DNA from: a virus
Virus record (IMG/VR): IMGVR_UViG_3300022833_000252
Location: 1 to 22,599 of that record
Length of the DNA stretch: 22,599 nucleotides
Strand: one strand, 5' to 3'
The stretch's first letter is position 1. Each line of letters begins with the position of its first letter. Positions 636 to 14,284 of the stretch are shown piece after piece. The notes beneath the pieces were generated by a model. It was not told where the DNA came from. It ran no database searches and was given only the letters and a program-made list of their open reading frames with translations. The translations under genes were made by a program, and so were the position numbers.

Positions 636-1838
636 ATGATTAATAAACAACCCTTCAAAGAGCTGATTGCAGGACTTAAAGAAAACGGAAAGTACCGAGT
701 ATTTAACGATATCCTACGTGAAAACGGCAAGTTTCCCCAGGCTATTTGGTACGGACCGTACAATATTAAGAATATTACCAATTGGTGTTCTAATGATTAT
801 CTAGGAATGGGACAGAATAAAGTTGTACTCGATGCCATGCACACAGCATTAGACATGACTGGCGCAGGTTCGGGTGGTACTCGTAATATTGCAGGAACAA
901 GTCACTATCACGTAGCACTAGAACACGAACTAGCACAGCTACATAACAAGACCGGTGCATTATTGTTTACTTCGGCCTATGTGGCCAACGAGTGGTCTTT
1001 AATTGCGCTAGCTAAAATTATCCCTAACATTCAGTTTATCAGTGATGCAAACAATCATAACAGTATTATTGTGGGTATCAGCCACAGTAGAGCTAGCAAG
1101 CAGGTTTTTAAGCATAACGATTTAAAAGATCTAGAGGACAAGTTAGTCAATGCACAACTCACAGGGCATGTTCCTTGTGTTGTGTTTGAGTCAGTCTACT
1201 CAATGGATGGCGATGTTGGACACATCAAAGAGATCTGCGATCTAGCAGATCGTCACGGTGCTATGACATATATCGACGAAGTTCATGCAGTAGGACTTTA
1301 TGGACCCCACGGTGGTGGGAAAGTTGAAGAGCTAGGGCTAGAATCCCGTATTGACATAGTCAATGGTACATTAGGGAAAGCCTATGGAGTCCAAGGCGGC
1401 TATATTGCTGCCGATAAAGAAATAGTCGACGCCATCCGTTCAGTAGCCGCTGGGTTTATCTTTACTACCAGCATGAGTCCTGTAACTTGTGCAGGAGCCT
1501 TGGCTGCTGTTAAGTATCTAAAGGATCATCAAGAGCTGCGTGATCTGCATCAAGAACGTGCTCGCAAGCTCAAGCACCGATTAGTTAAGAACGGCATACC
1601 CGTGATGGAATGCAGTGACAGTCACATTGTTCCTGTATTTGTGGGCGATGCTAAACGTGCTAAGGCAATGAGTGACCGATTGTTAACTGAACATAACATC
1701 TATGTTCAAGCAATAAACTTTCCAACGGTTGATGTGGGAACAGAGCGGTTACGTTTTGCACCTACTCCGTTCCACGACGATGGATTGATTGAAGATCTAA
1801 TTGTTGCTCTAAAAGAAGTGTTTAGTAGCGTTGAGTAA
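636..1838 (+). CDS. hemA: 5-aminolevulinate synthase (ALAS, Shemin pathway)
   Basis: This 400-residue PLP enzyme should condense glycine with succinyl-CoA to 5-aminolevulinate, the first step of tetrapyrrole synthesis in Alphaproteobacteria. It runs collinear with my recollection of Rhodobacter capsulatus ALAS and keeps the same numbering for key residues: Arg21 (succinyl-CoA carboxylate), Asp214 and His217 in YIDEVHAVG, and the PLP lysine Lys248 in [20 protein letters not shown] (78-88) and [17 protein letters not shown] near the C terminus distinguish ALAS from related alpha-oxoamine synthases (KBL, BioF). The length is normal and no frame break is seen. No Shine-Dalgarno precedes the ATG. 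The 3' end overlaps convergent hldD by 17 nt. Bacteria with the C5 pathway lack this enzyme, so it hints at an alphaproteobacterial host or gene donor. Confidence 0.95.
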
Positions 1839-2688
1839 CATTTAAGTAATTGAAGTATTCTTTAATACCATCTTCTATATTAACAAATCCGTTAACATCA
1901 ACACCTGCTGCTTCTAGATACTCTGTAGAAGCGCAGGTGCTCTTTTGATACTGTGCTTGAAGATCAGCAGGCATGGGGATATACAATTTGTCACCCATCA
2001 CTGCATCTAGGCAACAGTCAGCCACATGGTCAAAACTGACTGCATTGCCTGTACCTAGATCGTACAGTCCTTCTTTGTAGTTGTTTAGAAAGTGATAGAC
2101 TGTGCGGGCAATATCTTCAACATAGATAAAGTCTCTAAAGTATTCGTCACTGCGGTCAAATATGTTGATTGCCTTTGTTTCAGTAAGTTGCGTGTGCCAT
2201 TGGTAAGGAGTACTTGCCATGCGGCCTTTGTGATATTCGTTCGGCCCATAGACATTAAACAAGCGTAGTACTACTCCGTGTGTAATTTCTTGTTCGCTAG
2301 CCAACTTGCTAAAGGCGTAATGATTTAGAGGACCTGCACCATTGCCATAGACTGCTGCTGAACTGGCAAAGATAAACTTAACAGCATTCTCTTGGCATAA
2401 ATCGTGCCACTGGCGTGTGCGTAGAACATTAGTTTGATAGATGCTGCTCCAGTCACGTTCAAGTGTAGAACTGTTAGCACCGAAGTGTATAACAGCATCA
2501 AAGTCTTTAATGTCAGTGTCCATCTCTTTAGTTGAGTGCAAGCCTAGATATTTTTTGCCTACTAAGTTTTTATACTGATCACCGGTAGGCAAGTCATCAA
2601 ACAAGTAGACATCTTCAATACCCTGCTTGTTTAGATAGCCTAATATCACACTGCCAATAAAGCCGCCGGCACCTGTTAATGCTATCAT
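1822..2688 (-). CDS. hldD: ADP-L-glycero-D-manno-heptose 6-epimerase
   Basis: This 288-residue extended short-chain dehydrogenase should convert ADP-D-glycero- to ADP-L-glycero-beta-D-manno-heptose. The NAD(P) motif TGAGGFIG is at residues 5-12. The catalytic pair is Tyr124-x3-Lys128 (HYAFSK), with Ser/Ala residues in FASSAAVYG upstream. The HldD-specific stretch [16 protein letters not shown] is intact, as are [11 protein letters not shown] and [11 protein letters not shown]. The ATG at 2688 fits the family start, has GGAAG 7 nt upstream, and overlaps the kinase stop as ATGA. A TTG further upstream (2703) is less likely. It is the last gene of the minus-strand operon and converges with hemA. 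The segment between the VYG and Tyr motifs is shorter than in E. coli HldD. Confidence 0.93.
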
Positions 2689-3434
2689 TCTAGTTCTTCC
2701 CAAGTTGGAGCATATGCTCCTAGATGTTGGACTGTAACGCTTGCTGCCCTGATAGCATACTCAATTGCAGTAGCGATGTCTCGCTGTATTAGATACTCAC
2801 AGACTAATGCTGCTAAGAATGTATCCCCGGCGCCGCACACATCACTTACTTCTACCCTAGGAGCAGGAAAGGATAACTCGTGGGAAGGAACCATTGCTCC
2901 TTTGCTACCGAGTGTTACAATAAGTCCAGAACATTCTGTTTTGATCTTGCTGTACTCTAGTTCGTTGATCTTTACCCATGCACCTTGCATCCGTTCAAGG
3001 TCAGTCTTCTTTGTATCTATAAACACAGGTATCTTAGTTTGTATAGCTTGCTCAATCAACTCGTATGATACTGTTCCTTTAGCATAGTCGCTAAACACAA
3101 TAGCATCATATCCCAACAATGTATCGTTGCTAAGGCGGATCGAGTGACTTTCGACATCGTTGTCTATGCGAACAATCTGTTGCTTGCTGCGGATATCTAT
3201 CAGTCTGGTCTTTGTGCTAGTTTCTTCGTGTAAGTAGTTTACCCGACATCCTAATGCTTCTAGGTTACGAGCAACGTTGCCGGCCATGCCGGGCTTGTGT
3301 TCTTCGTGCGAAAATTTAAACACAGGAACTGGTGCTTCCGGACTGATGCGATCAACGGTACCGTATTGGTAAACGTCTACGCAATCATCCCCTACTAATA
3401 ATACGTTGTATGATGTTGGTTGTTGAGTGTTCAT
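2685..3434 (-). CDS. hldA: D-glycero-beta-D-manno-heptose-7-phosphate kinase, short form
   Basis: This PfkB-family sugar kinase of 249 residues matches the N-terminal kinase half of HldE (RfaE domain I), which adds phosphate to C1 of heptose 7-phosphate. Visible landmarks are LLVGDDCVDVYQYG, RISPEAPVPVF (30-39), PGMAGNVARNL in place of PGGAANV, SDYAKG (115-120), and the catalytic GAGDTF with Asp204. The family is usually about 310-320 residues. Here roughly 25 residues are missing after LGCRVNYL and a further stretch before GLIVTLGSKGA, giving a compact kinase. The start overlaps the preceding nucleotidyltransferase gene by 50 nt, with GAGAG 6 nt before the ATG. The stop overlaps the hldD start. 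Substrate assignment rests on similarity and operon context. Confidence 0.87.
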   Translation of the reverse strand: MNTQQPTSYNVLLVGDDCVDVYQYGTVDRISPEAPVPVFKFSHEEHKPGMAGNVARNLEALGCRVNYLHEETSTKTRLIDIRSKQQIVRIDNDVESHSIRLSNDTLLGYDAIVFSDYAKGTVSYELIEQAIQTKIPVFIDTKKTDLERMQGAWVKINELEYSKIKTECSGLIVTLGSKGAMVPSHELSFPAPRVEVSDVCGAGDTFLAALVCEYLIQRDIATAIEYAIRAASVTVQHLGAYAPTWEELE

Positions 3435-3786
3435 CTATTCTCTCAAAATATTCTATGCGTTTAGCATATTCGCTGCCTATCACAGTCTTACCCTTCCAGT
3501 CGCTGCCTACCATCATCACAGCAGGACGGAACTGATTAACTAACATTGCAAGCTCTAGATCACTGTCAAATATTTGTACTTCGTCTACTGCCTTTAGATT
3601 AGACAACATTGCCTTGCGCTCACCCATAGTATTAATAGGACGAGTTGGGCCTTTTAATTTAGCCACACGCTCGTCGCTGTCTATAGCAACTATTAAGTAA
3701 GTTCCTAGGCTACGAGCAGTGTTTAGCAGTCTAACATGTCCTGAGTGCAGTATGTCAAAGGTACCGTTTACAAATACAGTTGTCAT
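3385..3786 (-). CDS. hldC: Heptose-1-phosphate adenylyltransferase
   Basis: This 133-residue nucleotidyltransferase matches the C-terminal half of HldE (RfaE domain II), which transfers AMP from ATP to heptose 1-phosphate. It has the family signatures NGTFDILHSGH (7-17, the HxGH motif), a GERKAML stretch, DSDLELAMLVNQFRPAVMM, VGSDWKGKTVIG, and a C-terminal STTNIIQRI for the ISSTxI motif. In E. coli the two activities are fused as kinase then transferase. Here they are separate genes in the reverse order. The start overlaps the gmhB stop as ATGA, and the end overlaps the kinase gene by 50 nt. A different nucleotide or sugar phosphate is possible, because closely related enzymes include glycerol-3-phosphate cytidylyltransferases. 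Confidence 0.9.
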   Translation of the reverse strand: MTTVFVNGTFDILHSGHVRLLNTARSLGTYLIVAIDSDERVAKLKGPTRPINTMGERKAMLSNLKAVDEVQIFDSDLELAMLVNQFRPAVMMVGSDWKGKTVIGSEYAKRIEYFERIDEHSTTNIIQRIISRG

Positions 3787-4436
3787 GACAATGATTCTAC
3801 AAATGTTGCAAGATCATCAAACACTTTGGTCCTATGCTTGATATCTTTATAAGTCCACTTGTTTAATTCTTTCTCTGTTTCTAGGCCGTGACCTGTACGA
3901 ACAAGGACAGGAACTGCGCCGACTTTATGTGCTGCCTTGAGGTCGGACAGTTTATCACCTACAAAATATCCTTTGTTGAATTTAATGTGTTTAATTTCTT
4001 CCTCGCATCGTTTAAACATTCCGGTATTTGGTTTAGCAAATATATCACTTTTTAAATTAGTATTGCTATAAAATAATCCGTCTATGCTGGAGCACCCTGC
4101 CTGACCTAATAGTTGAAACATATATTCATGTACTCGTTCAACATCCGTTGAAGTGTACAATCCTTTTCCAATTCCGGCTTGATTAGTGATCACAACAATT
4201 TTGTGACCCATTCTCCGTAGTTTAGCAATTGCTTCTAGGCTACCGGGTATTGGTATAAAGTCTTCTACGCGATAAGTGTAGGTTCCACGATCGATATTGA
4301 TGACGCCATCTCGGTCCAGTCCTACAACACATTTAGGGGCAATGTTTTTACTATCATAGACTGATGTTCCTTCATCTGTATTGAAACTAGGATCCTGTAC
4401 AGGAGGAACATCAGTAGTCCATTTAATTTTAGACAT
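3783..4436 (-). CDS. gmhB: D-glycero-beta-D-manno-heptose 1,7-bisphosphate 7-phosphatase
   Basis: This 217-residue HAD-superfamily phosphatase should remove the 7-phosphate in ADP-heptose synthesis. The nucleophile motif is LDRDGVIN (Asp41 nucleophile, Asp43 acid/base). It is followed by motif II ITNQAGIGKG (Thr84-Asn85-Gln86), Lys135 in FAKPNTGM and the metal-binding GDKLSD (161-165). About 35 residues precede the HAD core, more than in E. coli GmhB. The Cys-rich zinc loop of E. coli GmhB is absent: the equivalent stretch YSNTNLKSDIFAKP has no Cys or His. The gene starts 8 nt inside the cupin gene and its stop overlaps the next start as ATGA. Histidinol phosphatase is the main alternative, but the heptose operon favours GmhB. 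Confidence 0.88.
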   Translation of the reverse strand: MSKIKWTTDVPPVQDPSFNTDEGTSVYDSKNIAPKCVVGLDRDGVINIDRGTYTYRVEDFIPIPGSLEAIAKLRRMGHKIVVITNQAGIGKGLYTSTDVERVHEYMFQLLGQAGCSSIDGLFYSNTNLKSDIFAKPNTGMFKRCEEEIKHIKFNKGYFVGDKLSDLKAAHKVGAVPVLVRTGHGLETEKELNKWTYKDIKHRTKVFDDLATFVESLS

Positions 4437-4821
4437 CTAACTGGTTAGCTGAGGTTGTATTCTGACTATCTCCCGGGATAATTCGGTAGTTGTCTTCCAC
4501 ACTATCAGGCGTGCTAACTTCAAATATCATCGAGTTAGGTTTTATAGCAATAAGTTGGTGCGGCATCATAGGAGGATTGTGCCAAGTATCGCCCTCATTT
4601 AATATCTTTTCAATATAGGTAGCTGTAGTTGTGTCGCAGTAGATTAGTTTAAATTGCCCTGCATTAACAAACCAAGTTTCATCTTTATCTTTGTGGAAGT
4701 GCATAGAAAACTTTGCACCTTCTTTTTCAAATACTAAAATTTTACCTGCATATTTGTCGTTAGTGGCCCAAATGATTTCGTAACCCCAACCTTTGTCTAC
4801 TTTGCCTTGCAGTCTTTCCAT
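4429..4821 (-). CDS. Cupin-fold protein, mannose-6-phosphate-isomerase-like
   Basis: This 130-residue single-domain cupin has motif 1 in MHFHKDKDETWFVNAG (His-x-His, then Glu and Gly at cupin spacing) and motif 2 in GDTWHNPPMMPHQL. The set His, His, Glu, His could bind a divalent metal. It is as short as the stand-alone cupins related to the C-terminal domain of type II phosphomannose isomerases. Its place inside the ADP-heptose operon suggests a role in sugar-phosphate isomerisation or epimerisation. It is not related to GmhA (a SIS-fold isomerase), so it cannot be assumed to replace that missing first step. The ATG at 4821 shares one base with the clpP stop (TAATG). The substrate is unknown. 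Confidence 0.8.
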   Translation of the reverse strand: MERLQGKVDKGWGYEIIWATNDKYAGKILVFEKEGAKFSMHFHKDKDETWFVNAGQFKLIYCDTTTATYIEKILNEGDTWHNPPMMPHQLIAIKPNSMIFEVSTPDSVEDNYRIIPGDSQNTTSANQLDV

Positions 4822-5441
4822 TATACTCTGTTCTCCATAATCTTGTCAGCAAGGCCGTAGTCAATTGCTTCCTGTGAAGATAAGAATGTGTCAAACTTCA
4901 TAGTCTCAAACAATTCGTCATAAGTCTTACCTGCTGTGTTGTGACGCACATACAATTGTGTAAGACGTTCGTTAATACGTTTGCTTTCTTCGAAGCTGCG
5001 ACGTGCATCTTCGAACTGCAAATCTTGTACATGGACACTACCGCTAGTACCACGTGTGCCAGAGCTGACACGATGGATCATTGTACGTGCTTCTGGTAGT
5101 ACATAACGCTTGCCTGCGGCTCCTGCTTGCGCTAGGAATGATCCCATACTACAGGCCTGCCCCATAACATAGGTAGCTACTGGACACCGGATAAACTGCA
5201 TTGTATCATATATAGCTAGTCCAGCAGTGACGCCGCCGCCTGGGCTATTAATGAACAAGCTGATTTCTTTGTCTGGGTTTTCGCTTTCTAAGAACAATAG
5301 CTGGGCTACAATAGTATTAGCCATATTGTCTTCTACAGGACCGTTGAGCATAACAATGCGCTCTTTTAACAATCGGCTGTAGATATCATAGGCACGTTCA
5401 CCTTTGCTCGTCGACTCTACTACCATTGGGATTAAACTCAT
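4821..5441 (-). CDS. clpP: ATP-dependent Clp protease proteolytic subunit
   Basis: This 206-residue ClpP is full length. The catalytic triad is visible: Ser98 in [11 protein letters not shown], His123 in MIHRVSSG and Asp184 in [12 protein letters not shown]. The glycine-rich [18 protein letters not shown] is the usual oxyanion strand, and the N-terminal region [23 protein letters not shown] is canonical. The AAGGAATCAGA leader gives a good ribosome site. No Clp ATPase is encoded in the window, so it would have to pair with host ClpX/ClpA or act as a peptidase. It is second in the minus-strand operon, 16 nt after the epimerase gene, and its stop overlaps the cupin start. It is unlike phage prohead proteases of the ClpP/S49 type, because it looks like a standard housekeeping ClpP. 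Confidence 0.95.
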
Positions 5442-9181: not shown

Positions 9182-10504
9182 ATGCGCACCCAACCACAAG
9201 ATATTATTGCTCGTCTAGAGGCAGACAACAGTCGCCTGGCTAAAGAAGCTATCCTTGCAGAAGCTATGGAAGAAGGACTTGATGAGTTCTTTGAAGGTCT
9301 AGTTATGAGCCTAGACAAGCTGTACACCTTTGGTGTTAAAGTAGTTCCGTCTAAAGAATCTGCAGGTGGGCAGGGGCTGGCCTGGGCACAATTTAAAGAA
9401 CTAGCACTAGCCCTACGCAAGCGTGAGCTTACAGGACATGCGGCTCGTGATGCTATCGAATTGGCTATGGGGGTGGCCACCCAGGAGCAATGGAATGGCT
9501 GGTACCGTCGCATCCTTATCAAGGACATGCGAGCAGGCTTTGGTGAAAGCACTGTAAACAACGTGTCTAAAAAGAGCAAGAAAGAACAGTACAAGATTCC
9601 AGTGTTCGAATGTATGCTGGCCCATGACGGTGCTAAACACGAAAAGAAAATTGCTGGAAAAAAGCTACTAGAAAAGAAACTAGATGGTGTACGCTGTCTT
9701 ACAGTTGTAGACTTCGAAGCTCGCTCTGTTACTATGTACACACGTAATGGCAAAGAGCTTGTGAACTTTCCGCATATTGTCAAGGCCTTTGAAGACAACA
9801 TGGATAACTTTGGTCGTAGCTACGTGTTTGACGGTGAAGTTATGTCTAGCTCATTCCAAGAGCTTATGACCCAAGTACATCGTAAAAGCAACGTAGAAGC
9901 CTCTGATGCTGTGCTTAACCTGTTCGACATCTTGCCCTTGGTAGAGTTCAAGCAGGGCGAGAGCACCATGGGTCAGCGTAGGCGCTCAAATTTCCTTAAG
10001 GCCAACTTCAGCCAGATCTTTGCAGATGCAGGCTGTATTATCATTGTTCCGCAGATTGAAGTAGATCTGGACACAATGGTAGGCATGGTAGAGTTTCAGG
10101 ACTTTAACAAGCTGATGGTCGAGCAGGGCTACGAGGGTATCATGATCAAAGATGTAGATGCCCCCTACGAGTGCAAGCGTTCAGCAAGCTGGCTCAAGCA
10201 GAAGCCCTTTATTGAAGTATCACTGGAGGTAATAGATGTTGAAGAAGGTACTGGACGAAATATCGACAAACTTGGAGCTTTGGTTTGCTCCGGCATAGAC
10301 GATGGGAAGCAAATTACAGTCAATGTTGGTAGTGGCTTTAGTGACGTTAATCGAGATGAGCTTTGGGCTTGCCGTGATACTCTTGCTGGCCAGGTTGTTG
10401 AAGTAAGGGCTGATGCAGTCACGCAGAATCAGGATGGCACGTATAGCCTACGCTTTCCTAGATTCTTACGCTTCCGTGGATTTGTCAAGGGTGAAAAGAT
10501 CTAG
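9182..10504 (+). CDS. ATP-dependent DNA ligase
   Basis: This 440-residue ligase should seal nicks in phage DNA. Motif I is KKLDGVR with the adenylated Lys166. TRNGKELVNFPHI is motif III-like, FDGEVM (Glu219) is motif IIIa, EGIMIKD is motif IV, and WLKQKPFIEV covers motif V. The N-terminal helical region (1-150) and the OB-fold tail (EVSLEVIDVEEGTGRNIDKL, then RFPRFLRFR) fit viral ligases of the T4 gp30 type, though this one is about 45 residues shorter than T4 gp30. AAGGAATAT precedes the ATG. The gene is convergent with the YqgE-like gene, and the two stop codons share the palindrome CTAG (10501-10504). Confidence 0.95.
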   Translation: MRTQPQDIIARLEADNSRLAKEAILAEAMEEGLDEFFEGLVMSLDKLYTFGVKVVPSKESAGGQGLAWAQFKELALALRKRELTGHAARDAIELAMGVATQEQWNGWYRRILIKDMRAGFGESTVNNVSKKSKKEQYKIPVFECMLAHDGAKHEKKIAGKKLLEKKLDGVRCLTVVDFEARSVTMYTRNGKELVNFPHIVKAFEDNMDNFGRSYVFDGEVMSSSFQELMTQVHRKSNVEASDAVLNLFDILPLVEFKQGESTMGQRRRSNFLKANFSQIFADAGCIIIVPQIEVDLDTMVGMVEFQDFNKLMVEQGYEGIMIKDVDAPYECKRSASWLKQKPFIEVSLEVIDVEEGTGRNIDKLGALVCSGIDDGKQITVNVGSGFSDVNRDELWACRDTLAGQVVEVRADAVTQNQDGTYSLRFPRFLRFRGFVKGEKI

Positions 10505-11061
10505 AGCCAACTGTCTACAGCCTGGGCTCCGCTTAGTACTGTAGACGCTGTCCATAGGTCTTCTTGGGCTGATTCATATACCCACTCAGGCCCAGGGTTA
10601 CTGGCCACTAGCCAACTATTCTGCTTGCCCCCGGAACTAAGGCCATCTAGCTCTGCTTGTAGTTGTCCGGGTGCCCACGAGCAATAGCCAAGCATCATAC
10701 GAAACCGCTGGGGGTAATCGCCGTTGCTCATAGCTTCAAACATACTGATGTTAGAAGTCATACTCCAGTCTTCGTTGATTTCTTCTGTGTAGTCATCTAG
10801 ACTCCATTCTGAGTCATGTAACATCCACACAGTACCTGGGCTCATAGGGCCACCCCAGTACAAGGGAAAATTTAAATTGATATCAACCCCTGCTTCAACC
10901 ACTATGTCCTGTAGTGTATACTCAGTAGGTTTGTTTAAACATAGGGCAAATGTGCCCCTGCTTACTGCGTGTGTGAGCATTATCACCGCGTCATTAAAAC
11001 GCAGGTCTATCATGCCCGGAGGTGCTATAAGAAGATCGCCTGCGCGTGCAGTTACTGTCAT
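10501..11061 (-). CDS. YqgE/AlgH (UPF0301) family protein
   Basis: This 186-residue protein follows the YqgE/AlgH pattern: DLLIAPPGM at the start, FNDAVIMLTHA, GTFALCLNKPTEYTLQDI, YWGGPMSPGTVWMLH, MTSNISMFEAM and MLGYCSWAPGQLQAEL. The cellular function of the family is unsettled: AlgH was first described as an alginate regulator in Pseudomonas, and structures show a conserved surface pocket. It is not an enzyme I can assign. AGGAG is 7 nt upstream of the ATG. It is the last gene of a minus-strand run of four (lipoprotein, two small proteins, this). A late or lysis-related setting is possible, but only as inference. Confidence 0.88.
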   Translation of the reverse strand: MTVTARAGDLLIAPPGMIDLRFNDAVIMLTHAVSRGTFALCLNKPTEYTLQDIVVEAGVDINLNFPLYWGGPMSPGTVWMLHDSEWSLDDYTEEINEDWSMTSNISMFEAMSNGDYPQRFRMMLGYCSWAPGQLQAELDGLSSGGKQNSWLVASNPGPEWVYESAQEDLWTASTVLSGAQAVDSWL

Positions 11062-12609: not shown

Positions 12610-12824
12610 CACACACGATCTAGTTCAGGTGCAGCACGAAGTAGAGGAAAAGCCAGCACTAGGACACAGCAGTATTTCGGGGGAATCCAAAAAAGATATA
12701 GTCCCTGATCCCGTATTTCAACTAGACCAGAATGCTGTTGTACCAGCTGCCATACTGCTTCGGGATCTGATGCTGCCCAATAAGGTAACTTGTAGCAGCA
12801 TAGTTTAGTTAGTTTCTCAGTCAT
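12609..12824 (-). CDS. Small hypothetical protein
   Basis: This 71-residue minus-strand frame starts at ATG 12824. The composition is protein-like: LPYWAASDPEAVWQLVQQHS, then VEIRDQGLYLFWIPPKYCCV and a hydrophobic LVLAFPLLRAAPELDRV end. The order (aromatic strand, helix, strand, FW-P turn, hydrophobic helix) looks like a small folded domain rather than an antisense artefact, and no plus-strand gene overlaps it. A TATACT -10 box lies at 12844-12839 on the minus strand, but no -35 or Shine-Dalgarno is seen. It converges with the 11999 gene. I do not recognise the family. Confidence 0.55.
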   Translation of the reverse strand: MTEKLTKLCCYKLPYWAASDPEAVWQLVQQHSGLVEIRDQGLYLFWIPPKYCCVLVLAFPLLRAAPELDRV

Positions 12825-12887
12825 ATCTAGCTGTATATAGTATAACTATGTGTGTAGAGAATACTATACTGAGAGAACCTAAACACA

Positions 12888-12977
12888 ATGAATACTAAAT
12901 TAACCACCTTGATAGTGAGCATAGCAGCAGCCTTGATCTGGATCGCAGGTTACTTAGCAGGCTCTGCACAGCTCTAA
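12888..12977 (+). CDS. Possible 29-residue membrane micro-ORF
   Basis: The frame begins MNTKLTTLIVSIAAALIWIA and ends GYLAGSAQL: one transmembrane helix with a short positive N terminus. It starts 18 nt after a TATACTGAG element (12865-12873). GAGAGA lies about 10 nt before the ATG, a weak ribosome site. The first three codons (ATGAATACT) are identical to those of the micro-ORF at 13461. Small membrane peptides are common in phage early regions, but coding is not proved. Confidence 0.4.
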   Translation: MNTKLTTLIVSIAAALIWIAGYLAGSAQL

Positions 12978-12978
12978 C

Positions 12979-12994
12979 TAGTGTATATACACTA
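12979..12994. repeat. 16-bp perfect palindrome
   Basis: TAGTGTATATACACTA is fully self-complementary and lies 1 nt after the stop of the 12888 micro-ORF, immediately before a TATACTGAC element. The size and symmetry suit a dimeric DNA-binding protein. Confidence 0.6.
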
Positions 12995-13067
12995 TACTGA
13001 CTATACACACTATATACAATATACAGCATATACCACGAAGGGGGTGGCTGTAGTGTAGGGTAGAGTA

Positions 13068-14128: not shown

Positions 14129-14203
14129 GGGCCGATAGCTTAATGGTAAAGCAGCGAACTCATAATTCGTTGAGTCTTGGTTCAATTCCAAGTCGGCCCA
14201 CCA
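14129..14203 (+). tRNA. tRNA-Met (CAU anticodon), or Ile2
   Basis: Full cloverleaf with encoded CCA. The acceptor GGGCCGA pairs with TCGGCCC (14193-14199), the D stem is GCTT/AAGC, the anticodon arm is GCGAA-CTCATAA-TTCGT with CAT at 14161-14163, and the T arm is CTTGG-TTCAATT-CCAAG. The paired G1-C72 argues against initiator tRNA. If C34 is lysidine-modified it would read AUA as Ile, and the sequence alone cannot exclude this. Confidence 0.95.
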
Positions 14204-14209
14204 AATTTC

Positions 14210-14284
14210 CCGGCGTTCGTTCAACGGATAGGACATAGAGCTTCTACCTCTAGAATGTGGGTTCGATTCCTGCACGCCGGACCA
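14210..14284 (+). tRNA. tRNA-Arg (UCU anticodon)
   Basis: Full cloverleaf with encoded CCA. The acceptor CCGGCGT pairs with ACGCCGG, the D stem is GTTC/GGAC, the anticodon arm is TAGAG-CTTCTAC-CTCTA with TCT at 14243-14245, and the T arm GTGGG-TTCGATT-CCTGC has two wobble or weak pairs. It decodes AGA/AGG. It lies 6 nt after the tRNA-Met and probably belongs to the same transcript. Confidence 0.95.

Follow-up and report, generated by a model that had tools for sequence, protein, structure and literature searches.

The virus record IMGVR_UViG_3300022833_000252, a stretch of 22,599 bases from a freshwater phage that is referred to below as the window, contains a minus-strand operon of overlapping genes for a cupin and for homologues of four ADP-heptose pathway enzymes: a kinase, a nucleotidyltransferase, a phosphatase, and an epimerase (Table 1). 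The assignment of these four enzymes to the pathway holds at the level of the module. We propose that this operon serves the phage as a heptose-activation cassette and feeds a phage-encoded glycosylation, by which heptose, possibly carbamoylated, would be attached to a tail protein or to a host glycan, and we give this proposal about an even chance of being right. A preliminary description of this DNA had placed four overlapping ADP-heptose genes with intact key motifs at positions 1822–4436, and these genes proved to be real: their best family matches lie in the pathway, their motifs are present, and they are under purifying selection. Neighboring pairs of the four open reading frames (ORFs) overlap by 19, 50, and 4 bases. 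The interval stops short of the cupin gene, which is part of the same overlapping operon.

The Four Pathway-Like Enzymes

For each of the four proteins the best NCBIfam match was a family of the ADP-heptose pathway. Bit scores (curated cut-off in brackets) were 236 (274.6) for the epimerase with TIGR02197, 159 (345) for the kinase with TIGR02198, 123.5 (181.5) for the nucleotidyltransferase with TIGR02199, and 146.8 (178) for the phosphatase with NF006506. Since all four score under these cut-offs, the enzymes are named here as pathway-like and not as formal members of the families.

The epimerase, whose start codon is either TTG or an ATG five codons downstream, aligned over its full length to HldD (1EQ2 and 2X6T), and the positions of E. 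coli Y140, K144, and K178 are conserved in it (NHYAFSK and HKG). HldD is said to work by a two-base mechanism, reportedly described by Morrison and Tanner in 2007, in which Lys178 is the second base besides the YxxxK motif. The phosphatase contains the HAD motifs LDRDGVIN, TNQ, AKP, and VGDKLSD, and its best match in the PDB was GmhB (4PNH, E 3e-24).

The kinase is much shorter than HldA, with reduced internal segments, and its GAGD catalytic motif is invariant across 32 homologues. The best-matching solved structure in searches of structure databases was HldA 4E84. An AlphaFold (AF2) model built from 32 phage homologues reached a predicted local distance difference test (pLDDT) score of 89.6 and again had 4E84 as its best PDB match (Z 27.4, 244 aligned residues, 35% identity). 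Foldseek comparison of this model gave E values of 7e-22 for 4E84 and 2e-23 for HldA 4E8Y, the best structure other than HldA reaching 6e-15, and the model was closer to HldA than to any ribokinase. Because the predicted model matches HldA best, the kinase is, as modeled, a compact HldA and not a ruined gene.

The nucleotidyltransferase matched TIGR02199 (5.6e-36) ahead of the glycerol-3-phosphate cytidylyltransferase family TIGR01518 (9e-20), and has the motif HSGH and, at its C-terminus, STTNII. Among solved structures, ethanolamine-phosphate cytidylyltransferase 3ELB came first and the putative cytidylyltransferase 5X9Q second. The nucleotide placed on the sugar is most likely ADP. In several marine phages the kinase and the nucleotidyltransferase form a single ORF in the order of HldE.

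Conservation of the Cassette and Selection on Its Genes

Relatives of the kinase were found in 60 IMG/VR loci and in about 31 catalogued phage records. When these 60 loci were pooled with the window and eight loci from cyanophages, 69 in all, the kinase cluster was present in 69, the nucleotidyltransferase in 68, the epimerase in 66, and the cupin in 62. Loci of the window type additionally carry GmhB, ClpP, and a convergent 5-aminolevulinate synthase gene. Comparison with four relatives gave ratios of nonsynonymous to synonymous substitution rates (dN/dS) of about 0.05–0.33 where dS was not saturated, indicating purifying selection. Since the same genes recur across many phage loci under purifying selection, they are not chance ORFs.

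About 29 of the 69 loci have neither of the two HAD types (GmhB or a mini-HAD, see below) close to the kinase. Three loci without GmhB or mini-HAD (L014, L043, and L056) encode near the kinase a different HAD protein of about 160 amino acids (DMDGVVADF/DMDDVIADF).

The Isomerase Step: Absence of GmhA and a Candidate Cupin

The statement of the preliminary description that GmhA is missing was confirmed: neither the window nor any of 71 related viral records, many of them fragments and eight of them whole cyanophage genomes, yielded a GmhA (SIS fold, PF13580) in a search that does detect the E. coli protein. The cyanophage proteins annotated as "phosphoheptose isomerase" (phrog_1238, about 110 amino acids) contain the HAD motifs DIDGTI, T/SAR, GKP, and IDDK. 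Judged from these motifs, the annotation is misleading and the protein looks like a small HAD-type phosphatase; because it reads as a HAD protein, it more likely performs the GmhB step. An example lies at 12713–13057 of locus L062, and papers citing phrog_1238 as an isomerase may be misled.

The cupin of the operon is a candidate for the isomerase acting in place of GmhA, a role that we consider possible but slightly less probable than its opposite. Cyanophage annotation gives this cupin the name "cysteine dioxygenase." The metal ligands, HxH(x4)E and a His, are nearly invariant among its members, which fall in Cupin_1/Cupin_2, and 28 of 29 members have a weak MannoseP_isomer match. With PF01050 (type II phosphomannose isomerase) the window protein scores 18.7 bits, under the gathering score of 23.6, and the best member reaches E 5.5e-6. 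The conversion of fructose-6-phosphate to mannose-6-phosphate and that of sedoheptulose-7-phosphate to manno-heptose-7-phosphate are the same chemistry, which makes the cupin plausible as a replacement of GmhA. The preliminary description had called the path "nearly complete"; this stands for the four enzymes and may understate the whole, as the operon cupin could supply the isomerase.

The competing reading, that the cupin performs another step and that heptose-7-phosphate comes from the host GmhA, could equally well turn out right or wrong. Cupins are functionally diverse, with oxalate decarboxylase and quercetinase cupins giving scores as good as those of sugar isomerases. Against this reading, the type II phosphomannose-isomerase motif is common to the cupin and E. 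coli CpsB (hhalign E 3.7e-4), and the cupin accompanies the phage-type kinase in all 31 catalogued records that have it, out of 35 records with the cupin and 50,697 records overall. This count leaves out four divergent kinase matches (28–32% identical), of which one comes from a Salmonella record, one from a faecal phage, and two from records of uncultured phages. Further, two Parcubacteria contigs carry the cupin, the kinase, and the nucleotidyltransferase, one of them with the epimerase too, and no GmhA was seen in the incomplete Parcubacteria genomes with cassette genes, where one SIS match lies within an ORF of 596 amino acids that is likely GlmS.

Two contigs filed under a Neomarinimicrobiota metagenome-assembled genome (L279 and L280) were dropped as cellular homologues; their cassette adjoins a phage-like structural ORF of 2125 amino acids, and they are probably misbinned phage.

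A Probable GT9-Like Transferase and a Carbamoyltransferase in the Tail-Fibre Region

The preliminary description had pointed to GT9 glycosyltransferases as possible partners of the cassette, and a GT9-like protein does occur in related phages. Weak GT9 (PF01075) matches in large relatives led to phrog_8954, a family without described function that is encoded outside the window and has the C-terminal motif GCDSxGQHxAYA...P...GST. A control by hhalign with the GT4 enzymes WaaG and WaaB was negative, and the phrog_8954 profile gave no relevant match among PDB sequences. A match of 415 amino acids to GT9 in G043 belongs outside phrog_8954 and was set aside.

In 79 of 80 IMG/VR loci phrog_8954 is directly followed by a carbamoyltransferase gene of the NodU/WapO type (NodU/CmcH); the G045 protein, also outside the window, scores 102.6 bits with PF02543 and 191.7 bits with PF16861, both above the gathering score. 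The pair lies in a conserved block made up, in this order, of a long tail-fibre protein, two small proteins of tail-like character, a glycine-rich protein (about 330 amino acids, in one to three copies), a 217-amino-acid protein, phrog_8954, and the carbamoyltransferase, followed by large virion proteins. The tail block is ordered alike in P-SSM2 and S-CAM1, where the cassette lies immediately behind it, and G045 and G021, which have the window-type operon, contain the transferase pair far from the cassette. In locus L164 (1459–6534), the tail-fibre protein upstream of the pair has five carbohydrate-binding CBM_5_12 stretches.

The kinase was present in 19 of 30 large contigs with phrog_8954 and in 1 of 16 control contigs picked by an unrelated phage ATPase gene (pooled Fisher p 4e-4, a value that ignores shared descent and derives from fragments). 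Among catalogued phages, all 23 close matches to the transferase fell in records carrying cassette genes.

Proposed Mechanism and Fate of the Sugar

Taken together, the data are best fitted by a glycosylation that the phage itself encodes and in which a heptosyltransferase-like enzyme is combined with carbamoyl modification. The cassette would convert a C7 sugar phosphate to a nucleotide-activated, most likely ADP-activated, glycero-manno-heptose. After the isomerase step, performed either by the co-conserved cupin through phosphomannose-isomerase-like chemistry or by host GmhA, the kinase would add the C1 phosphate and the HAD phosphatase would strip the C7 phosphate, and the nucleotidyltransferase and the epimerase would act next. 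The sugar would then be used by the GT9-like glycosyltransferase and its obligate neighbor, the carbamoyltransferase, the acceptor being a tail protein of the phage or, as the second most likely choice, a host surface glycan. We favor a virion acceptor because the transferase pair sits in the tail-fibre block, with host-surface glycans close behind. The most specific form of the proposal, namely a complete GmhA-independent pathway in T4-like aquatic phages with the cupin as sedoheptulose-7-phosphate isomerase and with a dedicated GT9-type transferase and the carbamoyltransferase placing carbamoyl-heptose on the phage's own tail fibres as a system for virion heptosylation, is unlikely to be right in all its parts at once.

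Several results weigh against the proposal. None of the four enzymes reaches its curated family cut-off. The fold search with the cupin was generic, matching many cupins, among them phosphomannose, phosphoglucose, and lyxose isomerases. No T4 late promoter (TATAAATA) was found upstream of the operon, and across the window this motif is as frequent as chance would predict. The C-terminal motif of phrog_8954 aligned with WaaF/WaaC/WaaU at hhalign E 3.1e-4 with a probability of just 39%, and in hmmscan with PF01075 the S-CAM1 member scored 22.0 (gathering score 22) and three others 13.2–19.8. In addition, 12 of 31 transferase-bearing contigs, which are fragments, have no visible kinase, and some cassette-bearing cyanophages lack phrog_8954 and have other transferases instead.

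Among the alternatives on the nature and use of the sugar, the most probable, although we think it rather unlikely, is that ADP-heptose remodels the lipopolysaccharide (LPS), O-chain, or capsule of the host, for superinfection block or hiding, and that the transferase pair acts on a host glycan. Remodeling of the host surface is the published reading of LPS-type genes in cyanophages and pelagimyophages (PMC7824862; PMC7029224), there are several glycosyltransferases within the S-SM2 and P-TIM68 clusters, and the known bacterial GT9 enzymes act on LPS. However, in almost every one of the 80 loci the transferase pair lies within the structural tail-fibre block, and marine Synechococcus LPS is without heptose and Kdo (PMC4515613). 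Since phages of marine Synechococcus have the cassette nonetheless, it is unlikely that they use it to supply the inner core of their host, and the role as donor for the LPS inner core, put forward in the preliminary description, is doubtful.

Less probable still is that the cassette makes some other activated sugar, or a secondary metabolite derived from a sugar, the likeness to heptose enzymes being ancestral only. The scores under the curated cut-offs and the shortened kinase speak for it, as does the pairing of the cassette in S-SM2 and P-TIM68 (L065 and L066) and in two Parcubacteria (L284 and L287) with thiamine-dependent E1/transketolase-like genes and a Zn alcohol dehydrogenase gene; a secondary metabolite was also proposed for one cyanophage cluster (Iyer et al., 2021; PMC7824862). 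Yet four distinct enzymes all indicate the heptose pathway, the catalytic residues of HldD are conserved, the transferase paired with the cassette resembles GT9, and for the carbamoyltransferase there is a precedent with heptose, Pseudomonas WapO, which carbamoylates the heptose of the LPS core (PMC8005017).

Glycosylation of the bases of phage DNA with this sugar as donor, an idea of the preliminary description, has in its favor that phage glycosyltransferases can protect DNA (PMC7029224), but it is highly improbable: the candidate transferase is located among tail genes, and no DNA-base modification gene was noticed beside the cassette, no genome-wide search for such genes having been made. 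Finally, that the cassette is non-functional filler DNA for headful packaging, a reading raised explicitly in 2010 for cyanophage LPS-type genes (PMC3037559), was rejected on the low dN/dS, the intact frames, and the conservation of the gene set over many phages, and is the least probable of all.

Organization of the Locus

The operon is led by a second gene of the SDR epimerase/dehydratase type, which is optional, being found at this position only in the window and in the near-identical relative L001. The gene for a ClpP-type protease lies between it and the cupin gene, an adjacency to the cassette that is restricted to the window-type lineage; the protease probably shares the operon without taking part in the sugar pathway. 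The 5-aminolevulinate synthase gene is convergent with the epimerase gene, which it overlaps by 17 bases, and about 20 loci retain it next to the cassette. Elsewhere in the window, the gene for an AlgH/DUF179-like protein adjoins that for an ATP-dependent DNA ligase, and two tRNA genes stand side by side.

Table 1. Features of the window (predicted functions; positions counted from its first base).
Feature	Positions	Strand	Evidence
5-Aminolevulinate synthase	636–1838	+	TIGR01821, 573 bits, above cut-off
HldD-like ADP-heptose 6-epimerase, 293 aa (amino acids)	1822–2703	-	TIGR02197 E 5.8e-70; structure matches 1EQ2/2X6T
Compact HldE-N/HldA-like heptose-7-phosphate kinase, 249 aa	2685–3434	-	TIGR02198 E 1.5e-46; HldA-like model
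HldE-C/HldC-like heptose-1-phosphate nucleotidyltransferase, 133 aa	3385–3786	-	TIGR02199 E 5.6e-36; phrog_7878
GmhB-like HAD phosphatase, 217 aa	3783–4436	-	NF006506 E 4.7e-43; 4PNH E 3e-24
Cupin, 130 aa; candidate ketose/aldose isomerase	4429–4821	-	Metal ligands; Cupin_1/Cupin_2; conserved cassette member
ClpP-type serine protease, 206 aa, full-length	4821–5441	-	PF00574 E 4.3e-65
Second SDR-type nucleotide-sugar epimerase/dehydratase, 303 aa	5458–6369	-	PF01370 E 2.7e-52
ATP-dependent DNA ligase	9182–10504		
AlgH/DUF179-like protein	10501–11061	-	PF02622 E 9.6e-31
tRNA-Met(CAT) and tRNA-Arg(TCT)	14129–14284	+	

Significance

The phages related to the one studied here may sugar-coat their own particles or the host surface. 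In 2010 the question whether LPS-type genes of cyanophages are functional or filler was left undecided. The cassette is under purifying selection, is present also in phages from freshwater, where its gene neighborhood differs, and co-occurs with a probable sugar transferase encoded among the tail genes. A vague "LPS gene" label thereby gives way to a pathway that can be tested and that predicts a mass tag on virion proteins. The cupin is a candidate for a new enzyme of the first heptose step, and a misleading database name is corrected, the cyanophage "phosphoheptose isomerase" looking like a phosphatase.

Comparison With Known Systems

With the E. coli-type ADP-heptose pathway (GmhA, HldE, GmhB, and HldD) the phage shares homologues of four enzymes with their catalytic motifs kept. 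It differs in having no GmhA, in the splitting of kinase and nucleotidyltransferase, in the compact kinase, in the cupin as an added fixed member, and in the scores of all its enzymes under curated cut-offs. The likeness to the Pseudomonas genes hldE, waaC, waaF, and wapO lies in heptose synthesis, a GT9 heptosyltransferase, and a carbamoyltransferase whose substrate is heptose, whereas the phage transferase forms a distant, separate family (phrog_8954) in a block of tail genes.

Among phages, pelagimyophages and SynMITS9220M01 are likewise T4-like and have rfaE-like and heptose kinase/epimerase genes. The papers on them mention rfaE (PMC7029224) and heptose genes (PMC7378029) as single genes only, and the "phosphoheptose isomerase" of such phages is HAD-like in our analysis. 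A published paper on phage AlaS mentions neither heptose nor the neighboring cassette genes (PMC11480375). No publication tying the cassette to phrog_8954 and the carbamoyltransferase was found in a literature search that largely excludes subscription papers.

Also close is the cyanophage cluster T4-GC 303–308 (P-SSM2, S-SSM7, and S-CAM1), which has the kinase, nucleotidyltransferase, cupin, and epimerase families in common with the window. Sullivan et al. (2010) reported that T4-GCs 304, 305, 307, and 308 co-occur and left their function open (PMC3037559), and Iyer et al. (2021) reported PfkB kinases, together with nucleotidyltransferases and cupin "sugar isomerases," in sugar clusters of cyanophages (PMC7824862). 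Several of the T4-GC 303–308 phages have a GT9-like gene and a carbamoyltransferase gene right beside the cassette and the tail fibres, whereas in relatives of the window phage the transferase pair is distant from the cassette. In the window phage, a full-length GmhB replaces the mini-HAD, and the neighbors are 5-aminolevulinate synthase and ClpP. The parts of the cassette were known in cyanophages from the work of 2010 and 2021, and the link from the pathway to the transferase appears to be new.

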